Origin: a virus
DNA: 20,949 nt
Strand: one strand, 5' to 3'
IMG/VR virus record: IMGVR_UViG_3300033153_004327
Location: 1-20,949 of that record
Shown here: piece by piece, positions 2,355-13,212 of the stretch
How positions within the stretch are numbered: position 1 is the stretch's first letter
Layout of the letters: each line of letters starts with the position of its first letter
Notes under the pieces: generated by a model
What the model was told of the DNA's origin: nothing
Databases searched by the model: none
What the model saw: the letters and a program-made list of their open reading frames with translations, nothing else
Program-made: the position numbers and the translations under genes

Positions 2355-2786
2355 ATGAATAAAGAAATGAAAGATGAATTATTAAAAATCACTAAAGAAA
2401 CTTTAGCTCCTGAATTACCAAAAGAAGAGGAAGCAATAAAGAAGATTAAAAATAAATCTATCATGGCAAACGTCTATCGTCATGGTCCTCCACCGGATAA
2501 TCCGGAGCACATGCATAAACAGCCACATCCTTTAAACAAGAAAAAATCAGTCAGATTTATAAAACAAGAGGGAAGAATGTATTTTAATATGGGTGACTGG
2601 CTTAAACCATATAAGAATAAACTCTTTGAAAGAATGGTGAAAATGACTGTAAAACCTCCAGCAAATAAGAGACTGGATCAATTATGGATGTGGATTGATG
2701 CCTGGCAGTTAATAGAAAAAGCTGTAAAAAAGAATATGGACCCTGTTGAAGTAGTTAAAACCTGGCAATCTGGGAGATTATTCTAA
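2355..2786 (+). CDS. Hypothetical protein between polymerase and clamp loader (143 aa)
   Basis: I do not recognise this family. A strong ribosome binding site (AAAGAGGAG) precedes the ATG. The N-terminal 35 residues are charged and probably helical. Residues 44-60 are rich in Pro and His (RHGPPPDNPEHMHKQPHP) and likely extended. The C-terminal half (about 75-143) holds Trp-rich helical stretches (LDQLWMWIDAWQL). Its stop shares one base with the start of the clamp-loader gene (TAATG), so the two are probably translated together. T4 pairs its clamp-loader ATPase with a small non-ATPase subunit (gp62), and this gene's position invites that idea, but I see no sequence likeness to gp62. Confidence 0.75.
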   Translation: MNKEMKDELLKITKETLAPELPKEEEAIKKIKNKSIMANVYRHGPPPDNPEHMHKQPHPLNKKKSVRFIKQEGRMYFNMGDWLKPYKNKLFERMVKMTVKPPANKRLDQLWMWIDAWQLIEKAVKKNMDPVEVVKTWQSGRLF

Positions 2787-3727
2787 TGGGATATACTAAA
2801 AAATATAGACCTGATACTTTTGAAAAAGTTATTGGTAACAAATCACAGGTGGCAGCCCTGGAAAAAAGTGTCATAAGAGATAATCCTGTACAGGCTTATA
2901 TAATTGTAGGACCTCATGGTGTTGGTAAAACTACTCTGGCAAGAGTGGCCTGTAAAGCTTTAAATATAGATCCTTTCAATATTGTAGAAATGAATTTGGC
3001 TCAGGATGGTCTTAAAAAAGACTCTGAAGAAATTACAAATGCTTGCAACACAGTCAGTATGGGAAATAGAGGTTGGATCCTTGATGAAATGCAAGCTTCC
3101 AGTAAAGCTTTTCAAAATGGCATTCTTAAACTTCTTGAAGAACCTCCTGCTGCAGATTTCTTTTTTATCTGCACTACTGACCCTGCAAAAATCTTAGATA
3201 CTGTCATAAGCCGGTGTACTCCTATTAAACTTACTCTGGTTAAAGATTCTCAAATTAAAAAGTTATTGAAAGGAATCTGCAGAGAAGAGAATTATCTTCT
3301 TGATCCAGAGATATTAGAAATGATTGCAGAAGCTGCTGATGGTCATGTACGGGACGCTGTTAAGTTATTGGATACTGTATCCGGAATGGAAGAAGAGTTT
3401 ATTCAGGAGTACCTTGAGAGTAATGTGGCAGGACTTAATGAAGATATCCCGGAAGTAATAAACTTCTGTAGAACATATTTTACCGGTAATTCTAATAAAT
3501 CTTTAAAAATACTTGGAGAACTTAAGAAAGAAAGAGTAGAGCCTGAAACAGTTAGAAGAACACTACTGAACTATGGTGCATCTATTATACTTAGAGATAG
3601 ATTAAGAGCTGGCAAAAGAATTAACGAAGTAGCTGAAATGTTGGAATGGTTTGAAGAGCCTCTGTTCGATACCGGAACAGCATGGCCTTTATTGATAACA
3701 AGAACTGTAAGAAGTTTTACAGATTAA
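2786..3727 (+). CDS. Sliding-clamp loader ATPase subunit (AAA+, DnaX/RFC/gp44-like)
   Basis: Loads the processivity clamp at primer-template junctions using ATP. Visible motifs: Walker A GPHGVGKTT (residues 42-50), Walker B WILDEMQ (D100, E101), sensor 1 ICTTDPAKI (128-136), the SRC motif with the trans-acting arginine finger (142-144), and a sensor 2 region GHVRDAVKLLD (186-196). The N-terminus KYRPDTFEKVIG is the usual clamp-loader opening. The Cys4 zinc module of bacterial DnaX between Walker A and B is absent, so it resembles RFC small subunit or T4 gp44 more. The C-terminal 200-313 is a helical collar-like region. No sliding clamp gene is visible in the window, so it is either elsewhere or supplied by the host. 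Confidence 0.93.
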   Translation: MGYTKKYRPDTFEKVIGNKSQVAALEKSVIRDNPVQAYIIVGPHGVGKTTLARVACKALNIDPFNIVEMNLAQDGLKKDSEEITNACNTVSMGNRGWILDEMQASSKAFQNGILKLLEEPPAADFFFICTTDPAKILDTVISRCTPIKLTLVKDSQIKKLLKGICREENYLLDPEILEMIAEAADGHVRDAVKLLDTVSGMEEEFIQEYLESNVAGLNEDIPEVINFCRTYFTGNSNKSLKILGELKKERVEPETVRRTLLNYGASIILRDRLRAGKRINEVAEMLEWFEEPLFDTGTAWPLLITRTVRSFTD

Positions 3728-3740
3728 AAAGGAGAAATAG

Positions 3741-4709
3741 ATGGTAGAGATTAGTCGGGACTTAAGAGCCGATAAGCAGATCAATAAAAATCTGTTGGAT
3801 GAAGAAGCAGAGATGCAGCCTTATGTGTATGGTGAATGGGCTGAATTAGTTGTTCAAGCTAAAGAAGATGCTGACAAAGCTAAACTTACTCTGGATAAAG
3901 TTAAATCTGAAAGATTCATGTTCCATAAAACACCAGATGAACCAGGAGAAAAACCTGCTACAGATAAAATGGCAGAACATCTTGTAAATTCTGATCCGGA
4001 AGTTATGAAAGCTCATAAAGCTTATATTACAGCAAATAAAACTTTGGGTTTCTGTAAAGTAGCTGAAGAATCTATGCAACAGAAAAGAAGTATGATTAAA
4101 ATCCTTACAGAACTTCACACTACAAAATATTTTGTAAAGGAAGAAATGGGAGTTGATGTCCGGGAGAATAAAAGAAAAACTAAAGATGCTGCAAATTCTT
4201 CTATGGATGAGAATGTTTCTGAAATGAATAAGAAACGAAAGAAGAAAAAGAAACTTCCTAAACCTGAACCAATTGTTATTGAAGAAGAAGATGAGGAAGA
4301 TGATGATTTATACGGTGATGATCTGGATGAAGATGAAGAGCTTTATGATGAAGCAGAAGGGATTGGCACTACTGATCCGGAACTTGAAGAAGACGATGAT
4401 CTGGATGTAGATATGGAAGAAGATGAGGAAGAAGCTGTTCCTCCTAAAACCAAAAGAACTGTTAAAAAAGGTGTAGATAAAAAACTTGCAGCTAAAAAAG
4501 CACCTAAGAAAAGAACTGTTAAAGAACAGGCTGCTCTTAATCAAATAGAAGGAAAGAAGCTTCAAAAGGAAATAGCTGATAAAAAGAAAACTGAAAAACC
4601 TAAAGGTAAATGTCCTCATGGATATGAGTTTGGAGTTTCATTTGGATTAGAACCTGAATGTGATGAGTGTGATATAGATAACGTCTGCTTTAAAGCAAGA
4701 TCGAAATAA
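3741..4709 (+). CDS. uvsY: UvsY-like recombination mediator with long acidic/basic tail and C-terminal Cys cluster
   Basis: Probable loader of the UvsX recombinase onto SSB-coated DNA. Residues about 15-132 are helical and, as far as I recall T4 UvsY (137 aa), match its layout: a Tyr/Trp-containing first helix (PYVYGEWAEL), a coiled coil, then a segment reading VNSDPEVMKAHKAY...LGFCKVAEESMQQKRSMIKIL that parallels the corresponding UvsY stretch. What follows is not in T4 UvsY: a Lys/Arg-rich patch (163-171), an acidic tract (about 181-231), a Lys-rich stretch (237-290), and a Cys cluster at C291, C307, C310 and C316. The same cluster ends the next gene, an SSB. AAGGAG precedes the ATG. Position next to SSB and near UvsX supports the call; homology rests on remembered sequence and needs a profile search. 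Confidence 0.6.
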   Translation: MVEISRDLRADKQINKNLLDEEAEMQPYVYGEWAELVVQAKEDADKAKLTLDKVKSERFMFHKTPDEPGEKPATDKMAEHLVNSDPEVMKAHKAYITANKTLGFCKVAEESMQQKRSMIKILTELHTTKYFVKEEMGVDVRENKRKTKDAANSSMDENVSEMNKKRKKKKKLPKPEPIVIEEEDEEDDDLYGDDLDEDEELYDEAEGIGTTDPELEEDDDLDVDMEEDEEEAVPPKTKRTVKKGVDKKLAAKKAPKKRTVKEQAALNQIEGKKLQKEIADKKKTEKPKGKCPHGYEFGVSFGLEPECDECDIDNVCFKARSK

Positions 4710-4724
4710 TTAAGGAGAATAATT

Positions 4725-5876
4725 ATGGCTACAAAAAAGAAGAAACATAGAAGAGTTGGAACTGAAAGAGTAGAGTCTCATGTAAGTACCAACAATGCCA
4801 GGGGTATGTCATCTTACACAGGAGTCTTTGATTTCAAAAAATTAAAGAAAAAACCTGAAGTATTCAAAGTTACCAGAGGTAAATCCAACAGATTTAACAT
4901 TATTCCCTTTGAAATTAAATCTGATCTATTCCCAAAAGTAGCTTCCGGGGATTTGTCAATTGGAGATCTCCATTATGCTATGGAATATTATGTCCATAAA
5001 AGTGTGAATAAATCGAAAGACATTCTCTGTCTGCAGAAGAATTATGGAAAACCCTGTGCACTTTGTGATGAATCTCGTAATCTCTGGGATGAATACAATG
5101 AAACCGGCAGTGAGAAAACAAAGAAACTGGCTATTGCTCTGGGAGCTAAAAGAAGATCAGTTTACAATGTCAAACCTGTCACTGGAGAAGACAAAGGTAA
5201 GATCATGTTTTATGAAGCCTCTACATATATCTTCGGTGATGAACTTGCAGAAGCTGCAAAAGAATGTGCTGACGGTGAAGGTGTAGTCGCTTTTTATGAA
5301 ACAGAAGATGAGGGGAAGATTGTAAAATTTCTGGTACCTGAAGATAAGAAAAAACCTTTCAAACAGTTTTCTTTTATTGATAGAAAGAAACCTGTTCCGG
5401 ATTCTGATATCGATAAAGCTTTTTCCTGGGATGAAGCTCTTGTCCTCATGACAAATAAACAGATCAAAGAATTCTACTTCGGTGAAGATGATGAAGTCAC
5501 TGATGATGATGAAGAAGAAGAAGAATTAGATGAAGAAGAAGAGGAGGAAGAAGGTGACGAGCCTGAATCTGATGATGATGACACTGACGAAGATGATGAC
5601 GAGGAAGAGGACGAAGAAGATGATGCTGACGATGATGATTCAGACGGAGAAGATGACGAGGACTCTGATGAGGATGATGACGAGGAAGAAACCCCTGTAA
5701 AAAAGAAAAAGAAATCTACTTCCAGTAAATCCAAATCATCTTCCAAAAAGAAATCTTCCGGAAGTAAATGCCCTGCAGGGCATAAGTTTGGTCCTGACTA
5801 TGGCAAACATTCTGAATGTGATGAATGTGATCTGGAAATGGCCTGTTACAAAGCAAAGAAAGCTAAAAAGAAATAA
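4725..5876 (+). CDS. Single-stranded DNA binding protein, T4 gp32-like, with acidic region and C-terminal Cys cluster
   Basis: Coats single-stranded DNA during replication and recombination. The N-terminus is strongly basic (KKKKHRR), as in the gp32 cooperativity segment. The core (about 30-250) contains H91, C102, C111 and C114 (CLQKNYGKPCALC), close to the His-Cys3 zinc site of gp32. Residues about 254-322 are almost only Asp and Glu, the usual partner-binding acidic tail of SSBs. Unusually, this is followed by a Lys/Ser linker (326-348) and a Cys cluster C349, C365, C368, C374 with the same spacing as in the upstream UvsY-like protein. Length (383 aa) exceeds T4 gp32 (about 301). AAGGAG precedes the ATG, and a terminator follows the stop. 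Confidence 0.85.
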   Translation: MATKKKKHRRVGTERVESHVSTNNARGMSSYTGVFDFKKLKKKPEVFKVTRGKSNRFNIIPFEIKSDLFPKVASGDLSIGDLHYAMEYYVHKSVNKSKDILCLQKNYGKPCALCDESRNLWDEYNETGSEKTKKLAIALGAKRRSVYNVKPVTGEDKGKIMFYEASTYIFGDELAEAAKECADGEGVVAFYETEDEGKIVKFLVPEDKKKPFKQFSFIDRKKPVPDSDIDKAFSWDEALVLMTNKQIKEFYFGEDDEVTDDDEEEEELDEEEEEEEGDEPESDDDDTDEDDDEEEDEEDDADDDDSDGEDDEDSDEDDDEEETPVKKKKKSTSSKSKSSSKKKSSGSKCPAGHKFGPDYGKHSECDECDLEMACYKAKKAKKK

Positions 5877-5897: not shown

Positions 5898-5921
5898 AGC
5901 CCTCTGAAAAGGGGGCTTTTT
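5898..5921 (+). terminator. Rho-independent terminator after the SSB gene
   Basis: An 8-bp stem (AGCCCTCT paired with AGGGGGCT, one T-G pair) closed by a GAAA tetraloop and followed by five T. It starts 22 bases after the SSB stop, and the next gene's AAGGAGGAG ribosome binding site begins immediately after the T run. No promoter can fit between, so downstream genes depend on read-through. It likely sets a high level for upstream products (SSB, UvsY-like) relative to the downstream ones. Confidence 0.85.
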
Positions 5922-5932
5922 AAGGAGGAGTC

Positions 5933-6313
5933 ATGTCATCAGAAGTTTATCTTAAAACAGGTGAAGCACTGGCTATGCTTAAACGGTTTAAAGTCGAATA
6001 CACTATTCAAGCTTTACGGCTTCAGCCCTTTGCCTGGAAGAATAAAAAAGACAAACACTGGTATTTCAAACGTGATGAACTGATTAGTTTTTTAAAAATA
6101 AGAAAAGGAACTTCTAAATGGAAATTGATTCCTTATCCCAAAGACAATAATAGAGTTCGTATGTGGAGAATTATTGCTTTGAATCGTTTAAGAGTAGCTA
6201 TTTATCAGAATAAGGATGTGATCCATCATGAAGACTACAAAACCCTCCTTGAACTCCTGGATAGAAAGCCAGGTAGAATCAGTAATAAAGAAGGAAATAA
6301 AAATGAAAACTGA
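5933..6313 (+). CDS. Excisionase/MerR-like winged helix-turn-helix DNA-binding protein (126 aa)
   Basis: The first 55 residues follow the excisionase-type HTH pattern: YLKTGEALAML (recognition of the first helix), a second helix with TIQALRLQPFAW, then a wing ending HWYFKRDELISFL, the usual last helix of this fold. The remaining 70 residues are basic (RVRMWRIIALNRLRVAIY) and unassigned. It is preceded by a very strong ribosome binding site (AAGGAGGAG) directly after a terminator, and its end overlaps the start of the uvsX-like gene by 11 bases. It may act as a regulator or as an accessory DNA-bending protein in recombination. The fold is inferred from pattern only. Confidence 0.65.
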   Translation: MSSEVYLKTGEALAMLKRFKVEYTIQALRLQPFAWKNKKDKHWYFKRDELISFLKIRKGTSKWKLIPYPKDNNRVRMWRIIALNRLRVAIYQNKDVIHHEDYKTLLELLDRKPGRISNKEGNKNEN

Positions 6314-7538
6314 ATTTGCAAGAACAGGATGTCATCTTCTTGACCTTTATTTTGGAGGAGGAAGAGGACTGGGTATTCCTTATGGATGTGCTATCAATCT
6401 ATGTGGTGATACCGGTAGTGGAAAATCTATGCTTGGTAATGAAATGATTGCTGCAGAACATCATCACAGAAAAGATAATTTTGACTGGCAGTATGAAGAT
6501 GGTGAAAATGGTAATAATTTTGACACCACTGAACTATACGGTGTTGATATAATGGGAGGAAATCTTTTACTTGATCATTCTAAAAAATTACCTTTAAAAC
6601 CTAAAACAGTAGAAGATATGGATGCTAGACTTTCTATTTTTCTTGAAATGTTACCTAAAAAACATTTTGGAATATATTTCATGGACAGTTTGGATTCTAT
6701 TTCAGATGAAGATAAATTGAATCGTTCAGAAAAAAGAAAAGAAGAATATGAAAAAGGTAAAACTTTTGATGAAGGTACTTATGGAATGGGAGCTGCAAAA
6801 TTTTTAAGTCAGGAGTTCTTCCGGAATCAAACTGCAAAGCTTCAAGGTAGTAAAGTAATACTGGGTATTGTTAGCCAGGTCCGGGAAAAAATAGGAGCTA
6901 AACAATATCAGAAAAAATTAAAAACTTCCGGTGGAAAAGCAAAAAGACACTGGATGGATTTAGAAGTGTGGTTTACTCCTGTCAGAGACCTTAAAAATGA
7001 AGGTAGTGATTTAGTCAATGGTATCTTTGTAGAAGTAGAAGGTCTTAAATCCCGTGATGGTCGAATGAAAAGAAAAGCTCGTTTTCTCTACTATACTGAT
7101 TTCGGTATTGATGATGTGGGGACCAGTCTTACTTTTCTTTATGGACTCAGAAGTCCCAGTGGAGAATATCGAAAAACTGTAGCTAAAAACATACCTTGGA
7201 ATCCTGGAGATACTGATAAACCTAAACCAGATCTTGATGGTGTTACTGAATGGTTGAAAACTGAAGAAAAAATGTTAGAAACATATAGAGATTTCCGGAA
7301 AAAAATAGATGGTAAAAGAGCTGTTAAAGCCAGTACTGTCATGGAATTTAAAGAAAGGAATAATCATTCAAAAAAATCATTTGAAGATTTCTTTGGTGCT
7401 CCTTCTGATTTTGACACTCTCAGATTGCAGATAATGAAGGATCCAAAAATGAAAAAAGAACTTGATAAAAGAGTTACTGAGAAATGGGAAGCTATTGAAG
7501 CAGCTGCAGCAAGTGGATTAGGGAGGAAATACGGATGA
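6303..7538 (+). CDS. uvsX: UvsX/RecA-like strand-exchange recombinase
   Basis: ATP-dependent recombinase that forms filaments on single-stranded DNA and drives strand invasion. Numbered from the ATG at 6303: Walker A GDTGSGKS (35-42), Walker B IYFMD (124-128), and a RecA loop-2-like block QVREKIGAKQYQKKLKTSGG (192-211) followed by the beta-strand WMDLEVWF, which matches the RecA order of IRMKIG...GG...LDI. The C-terminal 110 residues are helical and specific. I chose 6303 rather than the in-frame ATG at 6228 because AAGGA lies seven bases before it, the UvsX-like sequence starts right there, and the upstream start would overlap the HTH gene by 86 bases. Neighbouring UvsY-like and gp32-like genes complete the trio. 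Confidence 0.85.
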   Translation: MKTEFARTGCHLLDLYFGGGRGLGIPYGCAINLCGDTGSGKSMLGNEMIAAEHHHRKDNFDWQYEDGENGNNFDTTELYGVDIMGGNLLLDHSKKLPLKPKTVEDMDARLSIFLEMLPKKHFGIYFMDSLDSISDEDKLNRSEKRKEEYEKGKTFDEGTYGMGAAKFLSQEFFRNQTAKLQGSKVILGIVSQVREKIGAKQYQKKLKTSGGKAKRHWMDLEVWFTPVRDLKNEGSDLVNGIFVEVEGLKSRDGRMKRKARFLYYTDFGIDDVGTSLTFLYGLRSPSGEYRKTVAKNIPWNPGDTDKPKPDLDGVTEWLKTEEKMLETYRDFRKKIDGKRAVKASTVMEFKERNNHSKKSFEDFFGAPSDFDTLRLQIMKDPKMKKELDKRVTEKWEAIEAAAASGLGRKYG

Positions 7539-11679: not shown

Positions 11680-13212
11680 TCATTTAAACCTGTATTGTAA
11701 ATCACCATTATCCCCGTCTGATGGATCTTCTGGATTCATTACTTCAAAATCTGTTACTATCCATTCTTTGTCTACTACTTCTTTAGTTTTATAAATAGTG
11801 ATAAATGGAGTATCAGCATGAGCTGTAGCTAGATAGTTTCCATTGTATGAGAATGACATTCCTGCTACATCATCAGGTGGTGGATCAACTGGATCTGTTA
11901 ATTCTGTGAAAGTGTCACCTGATCTTTTATAAATTGTAATATACGGTGAATCAAAGTAGGCTACTGCCATATATAATCCATCATAGGAGAATACTACTCT
12001 AACTGCTTCTATTGAAGTTGGTAAATCAACTGCACCAGTTAATTCTGTAAACGTATCACCATTTCTTTTGTAAATTATAATATATGGTGAATTAAAGTGA
12101 ACTACTGCTAAATAAGTCCCATCATATGAAAATGCCACTCCGATTCCTGCATCAGCAGGTAGACTTGCAGGATTAGTTAATTTTGTAAACACATCACCTG
12201 ATCTTTTGTAAATTGTAATATACGGTGAAGTAGAATGAACTACTGCTAAATAAGTCCCATCATATGAAAATGTTAATCCAGAGCCTGAACTAGGAGGTAA
12301 ACTTACTGGATTAGTTAATTTAACAAAAGTATCTGTGCCTGCCGTTCTTTTATAAATTGTAACAAATGGTGAAATAGTATGACCTACTGCTAAATAAGTC
12401 CCATCATATGAAAATGATACTGCACGTCCGTCTCCTGTAGGTAGAATTACTGGATTAGTTAATTTTGTAAACACATCACCTGATCTTTTGTAAATTGTAA
12501 TATACGGTGAAGTAGAATGAACTACTGCTAAATAAGTCCCATCATATGAAAATGCCACTCCGACTCCTACACCTGTTGGTAGGTCTACAGGATTATCTAA
12601 TTTTGTAAATACATCTCCATTTCGTTTATAAATTGTAACAAATGGTGTAACATAATGCCCAACCGCTAAATAATTTCCATCGTAAGAAAAACTTACTCCC
12701 TCAGCAATCCCTGTTGGTAAATCAACTGGATTCGTTAATTTAACCATAGGTTCTATAGGACTTAATCCTGTACCTTTATAAACTAATTCAAGTCTCTCTT
12801 TTGAAAACATTTGAACAAATCCACTCGTACCTTTTGTAGTAAAATATTTATTCCTTAAGCTCATCACGTGCTCTGCATCATTCTGAATTATTTTAGGGTA
12901 TCCATCTGATAAGATATCTATTACATCCCCAGCAGTAGGACTTGCAGGTAGTGTTAATTCATGATCCCCTTGAATTAGATACTTTTTCCCTGATACTAAT
13001 GTAGTATCAGAAGAAATAACTTCTCTACTTCCTGCTGTGTATACACCTATAAAAGATGATAACCAAATCTTAAAAGCTAACCAGGTCCAATGTCTATCAA
13101 TTGTCGCTGGAGTACTTTCAGAAGGAAGTACACTGTAAACAACTGCATCATCCGGAAGTACATCAGGATCTACTACTGTATAATCATCTATTCTTTTAAA
13201 TCCACCAGCCAT
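11680..13212 (-). CDS. Tail fibre or receptor-binding protein with a seven-repeat beta-propeller
   Basis: Distal tail protein at the end of the baseplate operon, so a likely receptor-binding protein. Residues 1-150 form an attachment region, including a beta-rich domain (about 63-146, SGKKYLIQGDHELTLPASP) of the type found in phage fibres. Residues about 157-475 hold exactly seven repeats of 46-48 residues, each with F-S-Y-[DN]-G-x-Y-[LM]-A followed by SP[YF]xTIYKR-like sequence; FSY starts at 175, 221, 267, 315, 361, 408 and 454. Seven such repeats fit a closed seven-bladed propeller. The last 35 residues (DKEWIVTDFEV...) follow outside the propeller. AAGGAGATAAATT precedes the ATG. The fold is inferred from repeat number and pattern; the ligand is unknown. 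Confidence 0.8.
   Translation of the reverse strand: MAGGFKRIDDYTVVDPDVLPDDAVVYSVLPSESTPATIDRHWTWLAFKIWLSSFIGVYTAGSREVISSDTTLVSGKKYLIQGDHELTLPASPTAGDVIDILSDGYPKIIQNDAEHVMSLRNKYFTTKGTSGFVQMFSKERLELVYKGTGLSPIEPMVKLTNPVDLPTGIAEGVSFSYDGNYLAVGHYVTPFVTIYKRNGDVFTKLDNPVDLPTGVGVGVAFSYDGTYLAVVHSTSPYITIYKRSGDVFTKLTNPVILPTGDGRAVSFSYDGTYLAVGHTISPFVTIYKRTAGTDTFVKLTNPVSLPPSSGSGLTFSYDGTYLAVVHSTSPYITIYKRSGDVFTKLTNPASLPADAGIGVAFSYDGTYLAVVHFNSPYIIIYKRNGDTFTELTGAVDLPTSIEAVRVVFSYDGLYMAVAYFDSPYITIYKRSGDTFTELTDPVDPPPDDVAGMSFSYNGNYLATAHADTPFITIYKTKEVVDKEWIVTDFEVMNPEDPSDGDNGDLQYRFK
11788..12744 (-). repeat. Seven tandem propeller-blade repeats, about 140 bases each
   Basis: DNA coding for the seven repeats of the fibre gene. 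Divergence varies between copies: 12170-12272 and 12452-12554 are identical over 103 bases at an offset of 282 bases (two blades), while the blade between them differs and carries a short insertion (TAGTD). This points to recent duplication or gene conversion of blades. Confidence 0.9.

Follow-up and report, generated by a model that had tools for sequence, protein, structure and literature searches.

A four-cysteine C-terminal module of phage gp32-like single-stranded DNA-binding proteins and its gain by a UvsY-like recombination mediator

The window analysed here comprises the 20,949 nucleotides of IMG/VR virus record IMGVR_UViG_3300033153_004327 and is a fragment of a myovirus-like phage whose + strand carries a cluster of replication and recombination genes. 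Two adjacent genes of this cluster, encoding a UvsY-like recombination mediator and a gp32-like single-stranded DNA-binding protein (SSB), have products ending in the same module of four cysteines. Our comparisons show that this Cys module belongs to phage SSBs and that the UvsY-like protein of the window's lineage gained and retained it; it may dock both proteins on the same partner. The features concerned are as follows (aa, amino acids; dN/dS, ratio of nonsynonymous to synonymous substitution rates):

3741–4709, + strand: UvsY-like recombination mediator, 322 aa, with the UvsY core at approximately aa 1–143 (PHROGs 231, Pfam, profile from relatives).
4170–4610, + strand: lineage-specific extension of UvsY, basic, acidic and then a Lys-rich linker (aa 144–290), missing from the UvsY of all other loci.
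4611–4706, + strand: UvsY Cys module (C291, C307, C310, C316), supported by the pattern, the tail profile and a dN/dS of 0.05–0.35.
4725–5876, + strand: gp32-like SSB, 383 aa (Pfam gp32, over the cut-off).
5490–5768, + strand: acidic tract and then Lys/Ser-rich linker of the SSB (aa 256–348), with the same layout in relatives.
5769–5873, + strand: SSB Cys module (C349, C365, C368, C374), supported by the pattern, the tail profile, AlphaFold2 and a dN/dS of 0.06–0.16.

The UvsY-like open reading frame (ORF; 3741–4709) terminates in ...KCPHGYEFGVSFGLEPECDECDIDNVCFKARSK and the SSB ORF (4725–5876) in ...KCPAGHKFGPDYGKHSECDECDLEMACYKAKKAKKK. Both tails show the spacing C-x15-C-x2-C-x5-C, with CPxG, FG, ECDECD and C[FY]KA as shared elements, and fit exactly the pattern C-P-x4-F-G-x8-C-x2-C-x5-C, with the stop codon 6 and 9 residues further on, respectively. 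The corresponding DNA pattern has exactly two matches in the window (4611–4688 and 5769–5846) and none in 100 dinucleotide shuffles, which led us to reject a chance origin of the two matches. In both proteins the tail follows an acidic tract and then a Lys-rich linker. A preliminary description of the sequence had already noticed the common tail, its attachment through these segments and the lack of a named domain (its range of 4610–5867 spans tail to tail and so takes in the whole SSB core), and the three observations are confirmed here: no family covering the module was found in Pfam, NCBIfam or PHROGs, and sequence searches of the PDB with the tail returned no match.

The identities of the two proteins hold in profile comparisons. 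The SSB reaches 33.8 bits with Pfam gp32 (PF08804; cut-off 26.8, E = 4e-8) and matches PHROGs 1192 (E = 2e-7), and the gp32-type metal site of its core (H91, C102, C111 and C114) is invariant in an alignment of 34 diverse relatives. The UvsY-like protein matches PHROGs 231 (E = 1.2e-5), attains 19.7 bits with Pfam UvsY (PF11056), under the curated cut-off of 22.8 bits, and is matched over aa 7–142 by a profile made from the UvsY of its relatives; its gene adjoins that for the SSB, a synteny that is conserved.

In IMG/VR, the DNA pattern retrieved at least 120 stretches, nearly all in frame. After a stricter search of GTDB genomes and two additional IMG/VR scans, the survey covered about 300 loci (L numbers below). 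The alignment of SSB cores was too diverse for deriving a scan pattern. A tail profile identified 299 tail-bearing ORFs in these loci, 261 with an SSB core, four UvsY-like and 34 with neither; these last are SSB fragments at contig ends, tails split off by a frame change or a stop, three kinds of small proteins and two weak matches in cellular contigs. There are 227 distinct tailed SSBs, gp32-like and from more than 200 other contigs, nearly all of them from phages. In 214 of 260 SSBs no more than 20 residues separate the module from the C-terminus, and Asp/Glu make up 33% of the 90 residues preceding it, while Lys/Arg account for 27% of the last 25. An aromatic residue occurs between the third and fourth Cys in 237 of 259 tails, and Asp follows FG in 249; in the window lineage the aromatic is missing from both tails and the Asp from the UvsY tail.

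The stricter pattern produced 24 matches in GTDB genomes, 16 of them on SSBs (15 beside a UvsY gene) and the others on fragments at contig edges, weak or out of frame. Given that these matches are few and mostly on SSBs, the Cys module is in essence an element of phage SSBs. When 38 contigs of 40–115 kb were scanned over the whole record, each showed a single tail, on the SSB, the exceptions being tandem-tail SSBs (L223, L282), a second carrier in L252 and one match with E = 0.002 that we judged to be noise. On the basis of these scans and of the tail profile survey we reject a placement of the tail on random proteins, which the preliminary description had named as an outcome that would refute its reading; it is nearly confined to SSBs and a few carriers from the replication cluster. 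Searches of named phages with the short tails using tblastn gave no match even at E = 10, although low-complexity filtering may hide tails and this result is no evidence of absence.

As selection based on the tail could mislead, SSBs were also sought through their core. With the core from L112, representing the near subfamily, all SSBs not cut by a contig end carry the tail; with the window core the tail is found in four out of four, that of L004 being shortened, and with the distant core from L028 only a few have the tail or a variant. Because the near-core SSBs are tailed, and distant SSBs and that of the cultured Edwardsiella phage vB_EpM_ZHS are not, the tail marks a clade of SSBs, being ancestral on this protein. 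Variant tails are found at the C-terminus of the SSBs from L363 and L364 (C-P-x4-F-G-x8-C-x2-C-x7-C) and in L004 at 5900–6017 (C-F-G-x7-C-x2-C-x5-C), and tandem Cys modules, 19–38 residues apart, in those from L184, L189, L223, L246, L271, L272, L278 and L282. A pair of DnaJ-like CxxCxGxG motifs is present in the linker before the tail in 25 SSB ORFs (L008, L016, L032 and L122, among others). Additionally, six of the 227 tailed SSBs (L020, L032, L087, L122, L201 and L250) show, after the Cys module, a DDIPF, DDIPY or EDIPF ending resembling the docking tip of Escherichia coli SSB.

The situation of the UvsY tail is different. A UvsY profile matched 245 ORFs in the surveyed loci, of which the tailed ones come solely from the window, L001 and L002 (L003 being identical to L002 for these genes); only in this lineage of three distinct genomes, too, does UvsY exceed 232 aa, owing to an extra extension of approximately 180 residues. 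In about 240 loci UvsY has neither tail nor extension. Therefore the tail of UvsY is derived, as are the acidic tract and the basic linker before it, and it is not a property of both proteins alike, as the preliminary description had presented it.

Several features relate the UvsY tail to the SSBs of the same genomes. The two long contigs of the window lineage contain two tails each, on SSB and UvsY. Among 228 distinct SSB tails, the three from its own lineage come closest to the window UvsY tail, and for the UvsY tails from L001 and L002 the SSB tail of the same genome is placed first and second. Likewise, an [FY]G pair at tail positions 11–12, four residues beyond the start block of the FG motif, is shared by the lineage's six tails and by no other among 259. 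The UvsY and SSB tails of the window are identical in 57 of 87 bases, so the duplication is either old or gene-converted. All four Cys are kept in the UvsY tails of the lineage, at 69% protein identity, and the dN/dS of these tails (0.05–0.35) is mostly under that of the preceding linker (0.10–0.54), these being rough values from short stretches; for the SSB tail it is 0.06–0.16. The UvsY tail is thus under purifying selection. A loss of the Cys in close relatives, the other outcome named in the preliminary description as refuting its reading, is likewise not observed. From the proximity to the lineage's own SSB tails, the shared [FY]G, the four retained Cys and this selection, the simplest reading is that the C-terminal region of the SSB was partly copied onto the adjacent UvsY gene and then kept. 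Although the confinement of the UvsY tail to a single lineage might be expected of a neutral relic of duplication, the retention of all four Cys at that level of divergence and a dN/dS well below 1 make such a relic scarcely credible, and we reject it. The duplication suggested in the preliminary description is thus supported by the nearest-tail ranks and the [FY]G signature; it had been offered there as an alternative to a docking tag, but the two are not exclusive and we favour both.

A metal site is suggested by the four invariant Cys, and the module is probably metal-binding. As these residues were part of the search pattern, their invariance is to be read with caution; independent support comes from the unselected aromatic between the third and fourth Cys and from the full conservation in core-selected SSBs. 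AlphaFold2, run on 90 tails, modelled the 39 residues of the SSB tail with moderate confidence (mean predicted local distance difference test, pLDDT, of 80; predicted template modelling score, pTM, of 0.52); the first half is extended and is followed by a short helix (20–23) around C-x2-C and a helix at 27–38 with the last Cys, without strands. A search of BFVD with this model gave no useful match.

Zinc and iron-sulfur stand at about even odds. The arrangement C-x2-C-x5-C together with the helical model fits a [4Fe-4S] cluster at least as well as zinc; to this extent the zinc-binding tag of the preliminary description is not upheld. That the tail does hold a [4Fe-4S] cluster instead of zinc, with docking hinging on redox state or cluster delivery, is a serious alternative that we place somewhat below the contrary, and it departs from the docking-module reading only in the metal and in switchability. 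In WhiB1, C9, C37, C40 and C46 are all required for the [4Fe-4S] cluster, the ligand pattern being C-x2-C-x5-C after a distant Cys (PMC6282962, PMC3390391), and in RseC the cysteines of C-x2-C-x5-C hold a [4Fe-4S] cluster that is sensitive to oxygen (PMC11729352). The predicted model, with two helices over the last three Cys and no strands, is also unlike a zinc ribbon, and there are weak matches to the EndIII_4Fe-2S, WhiB and RseC profiles. However, these matches are all far under the family cut-offs, the G[VI]WGG motif of WhiB is missing from the tail and the hosts include non-anaerobes. The WhiB-like spacing C-xn-C-x2-C-x5-C is present, but we reject membership in the WhiB family (PF02467), as there is no match over the cut-off, the G[VI]WGG turn is absent and the protein ends 6–9 residues past the last Cys. 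Membership in the endonuclease III [4Fe-4S] loop family (PF10576) is also rejected, with x15 in place of x6, no glycosylase domain and a best profile E of 0.29 for 90 tails. Weak Pfam matches to DUF7563, C7_FIM2 and Furin-like were put down to chance similarity among Cys-rich sequences.

In three more lineages a second tail occurs, carried by another small protein of the replication cluster; none of these proteins has an assigned function:

L060, 3587–4048 (also in L088 and L104): 155-aa ORF, between the genes for the clamp loader and UvsY.
L037, 5415–5975 (also in L192): 196-aa ORF, between the genes for the clamp loader and UvsY.
L252, 2214–2723: small protein, downstream of UvsX.

For the 155-aa protein of L060, the SSB tail from its own genome ranks only 174 of 227, so own-genome duplication does not appear to be the rule for every second carrier. 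The module is portable but stays within the replication cluster, and this confinement fits an address tag for the machinery better than a general-purpose domain.

In seven loci (L016, L063, L129, L161, L229, L255 and L274) the SSB core and the Cys tail are in different frames, and all seven require a -1 shift; the same genes contain an in-phase A AAA AAG or an A-run slippery site within the Lys-rich linker. A comparable slippery site exists in E. coli dnaX. As the frame-split arrangement is common to L129, L229, L255 and L274 despite a core identity of only 40–59%, recoding or transcriptional slippage yielding both tailed and untailed SSB is possible in these relatives, homopolymer indels being the rival explanation. 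An eighth frame-split SSB, from L168, is shifted +1.

UvsX, UvsY, gp59 and Dda dock on the C-terminal domain of T4 gp32, and T4 UvsY mediates the exchange from gp32 to UvsX (PMC3016280, PMC11551737). By analogy, the Cys module would be the docking head of the SSB arm in this clade, and on balance we favour the view that the tail is a metal-stabilised docking module on a flexible arm, recruiting one common partner of SSB and UvsY. The arm, acidic and then basic, carries at its end the small all-Cys module with which a large clade of gp32-like phage SSBs normally terminates, and would offer it to the partner as a compact acidic helical knob. Its role would resemble that of the T4 gp32 C-terminal domain and the E. 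coli SSB tip, to which the tail is unrelated in sequence. With the 3′ part of the SSB gene copied onto the neighbouring UvsY gene, at its 3′ end, and kept by selection, the tailed UvsY may be brought to the partner and place of the SSB, or may compete with it for the partner, during the exchange between SSB and recombinase. The candidate partners are a host protein or the following products of the cluster:

77–2035, + strand: family A DNA polymerase (Pfam DNA_pol_A, PHROGs 17).
2786–3727, + strand: clamp loader ATPase (PHROGs 5846, E = 2e-48).
6228–7538, + strand: UvsX/RecA-like recombinase (PHROGs 97, E = 9e-19).

Downstream of the recombinase gene are RuvC-like and SbcC/SbcD-like ORFs, names given by reading the sequence only. 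The cluster also includes a 60-aa ORF (2129–2311, + strand) with two CxxC-like pairs (CSKC and C...C), a candidate small zinc ribbon, while the tail/baseplate region contains, on the minus strand, a 510-aa ORF (11680–13212) with several propeller-like repeats of about 45 residues (FSYDGTYLAV...SPYITIYKR...).

The common-partner docking tag is favoured by the near-confinement of the tail to SSBs and cluster carriers, the purifying selection on the UvsY copy and the analogy with T4 gp32 (PMC3016280, PMC11551737). Some results weigh against it. The most distant metagenomic SSBs (L362, L366–L370) and that of the cultured relative vB_EpM_ZHS, which has the same gene order, lie in the same replication cluster but are untailed; therefore the function of the tail is dispensable, or met otherwise, in these relatives. 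Foldseek comparisons of the tail model with the PDB gave no match. The occurrence, conservation and position of the tail, its near-confinement to SSBs and cluster neighbours, its gain by UvsY in one lineage, the paralogy with the SSB tail of that lineage and the purifying selection are established by the comparisons, whereas metal binding, docking, a shared partner and a part in the hand-off are inferred from them. Alternatively, the tail could act within its own protein, the arm and module folding back on the face that binds single-stranded DNA (ssDNA) and tuning binding or cooperativity with no outside partner, or, on UvsY, ssDNA binding or hexamer formation. An arm that is about one-third Asp/Glu is in keeping with this, but such an acidic arm alone would suffice, leaving unexplained the strict conservation of a terminal folded Cys module and its transfer to small proteins that are unrelated (L060, L037, L252), and we consider it unlikely. 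Homotypic pairing of the SSB and UvsY tails through a shared metal or Cys, joining the mediator directly to the SSB, is suggested by the paralogous tails of two proteins meeting on ssDNA and by the tandem tails within some SSBs; nevertheless, only the SSB is tailed in nearly all genomes, so the tail is useful without a tailed UvsY, and this pairing is distinctly less probable still. We advance with much reserve a broader view of the docking module, in which a C-terminal [4Fe-4S] module makes a redox-sensitive ssDNA hub, phages move it, as a portable address tag, among SSB, UvsY and small proteins of the cluster, and some lineages set the fraction of tagged SSB by -1 frameshifting at A AAA AAG.

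We found no description of the module, its spread or its transfer to the mediator in the open-access full-text literature, whereas the principle of a C-terminal docking arm on SSBs is already known. What emerges is a module as yet without a name, strictly conserved across more than 200 phage SSBs, together with a natural experiment in which one lineage put the SSB module on its recombination mediator and kept it. The two tailed proteins would be independent baits for one partner, which should be easy to find with them, and recruitment through the SSB tail is directly testable. Should the metal prove to be an iron-sulfur cluster, its presence on a phage SSB would be unexpected.

Among known systems, the metal of T4 gp32 is in the core only (PMC3016280). 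The window SSB tail resembles the acidic (A) domain of gp32, a partner hub, in being a C-terminal, acidic and flexible extension within the same SSB family (Pfam gp32). To our knowledge, the T4 gp32 tail has no Cys module, unlike the window SSB, and T4 UvsY, whose core is homologous to aa 1–143 of the window protein, has neither the extension nor the Cys module. The surveyed UvsY-like proteins outside the window lineage also lack both. The C-terminal tip of E. coli SSB (SSB-Ct, ...DDDIPF) is a linear peptide without Cys; it is likewise a conserved docking terminus, short and borne by a disordered linker, although the window proteins lack such a tip. WhiB-like (Wbl) iron-sulfur proteins share C-xn-C-x2-C-x5-C, but WhiB1 has x27 where the tail has x15, and the tail shows neither G[VI]WGG nor a significant profile match. 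The arrangement C-x2-C-x5-C is also shared by the [4Fe-4S] loop of endonuclease III, where the first Cys spacing is x6 and the loop stands at the end of a helix-hairpin-helix (HhH) glycosylase, and by the N-terminal domain of RseC, in which the first Cys is at x5 and dispensable; in both, the context is wholly different.
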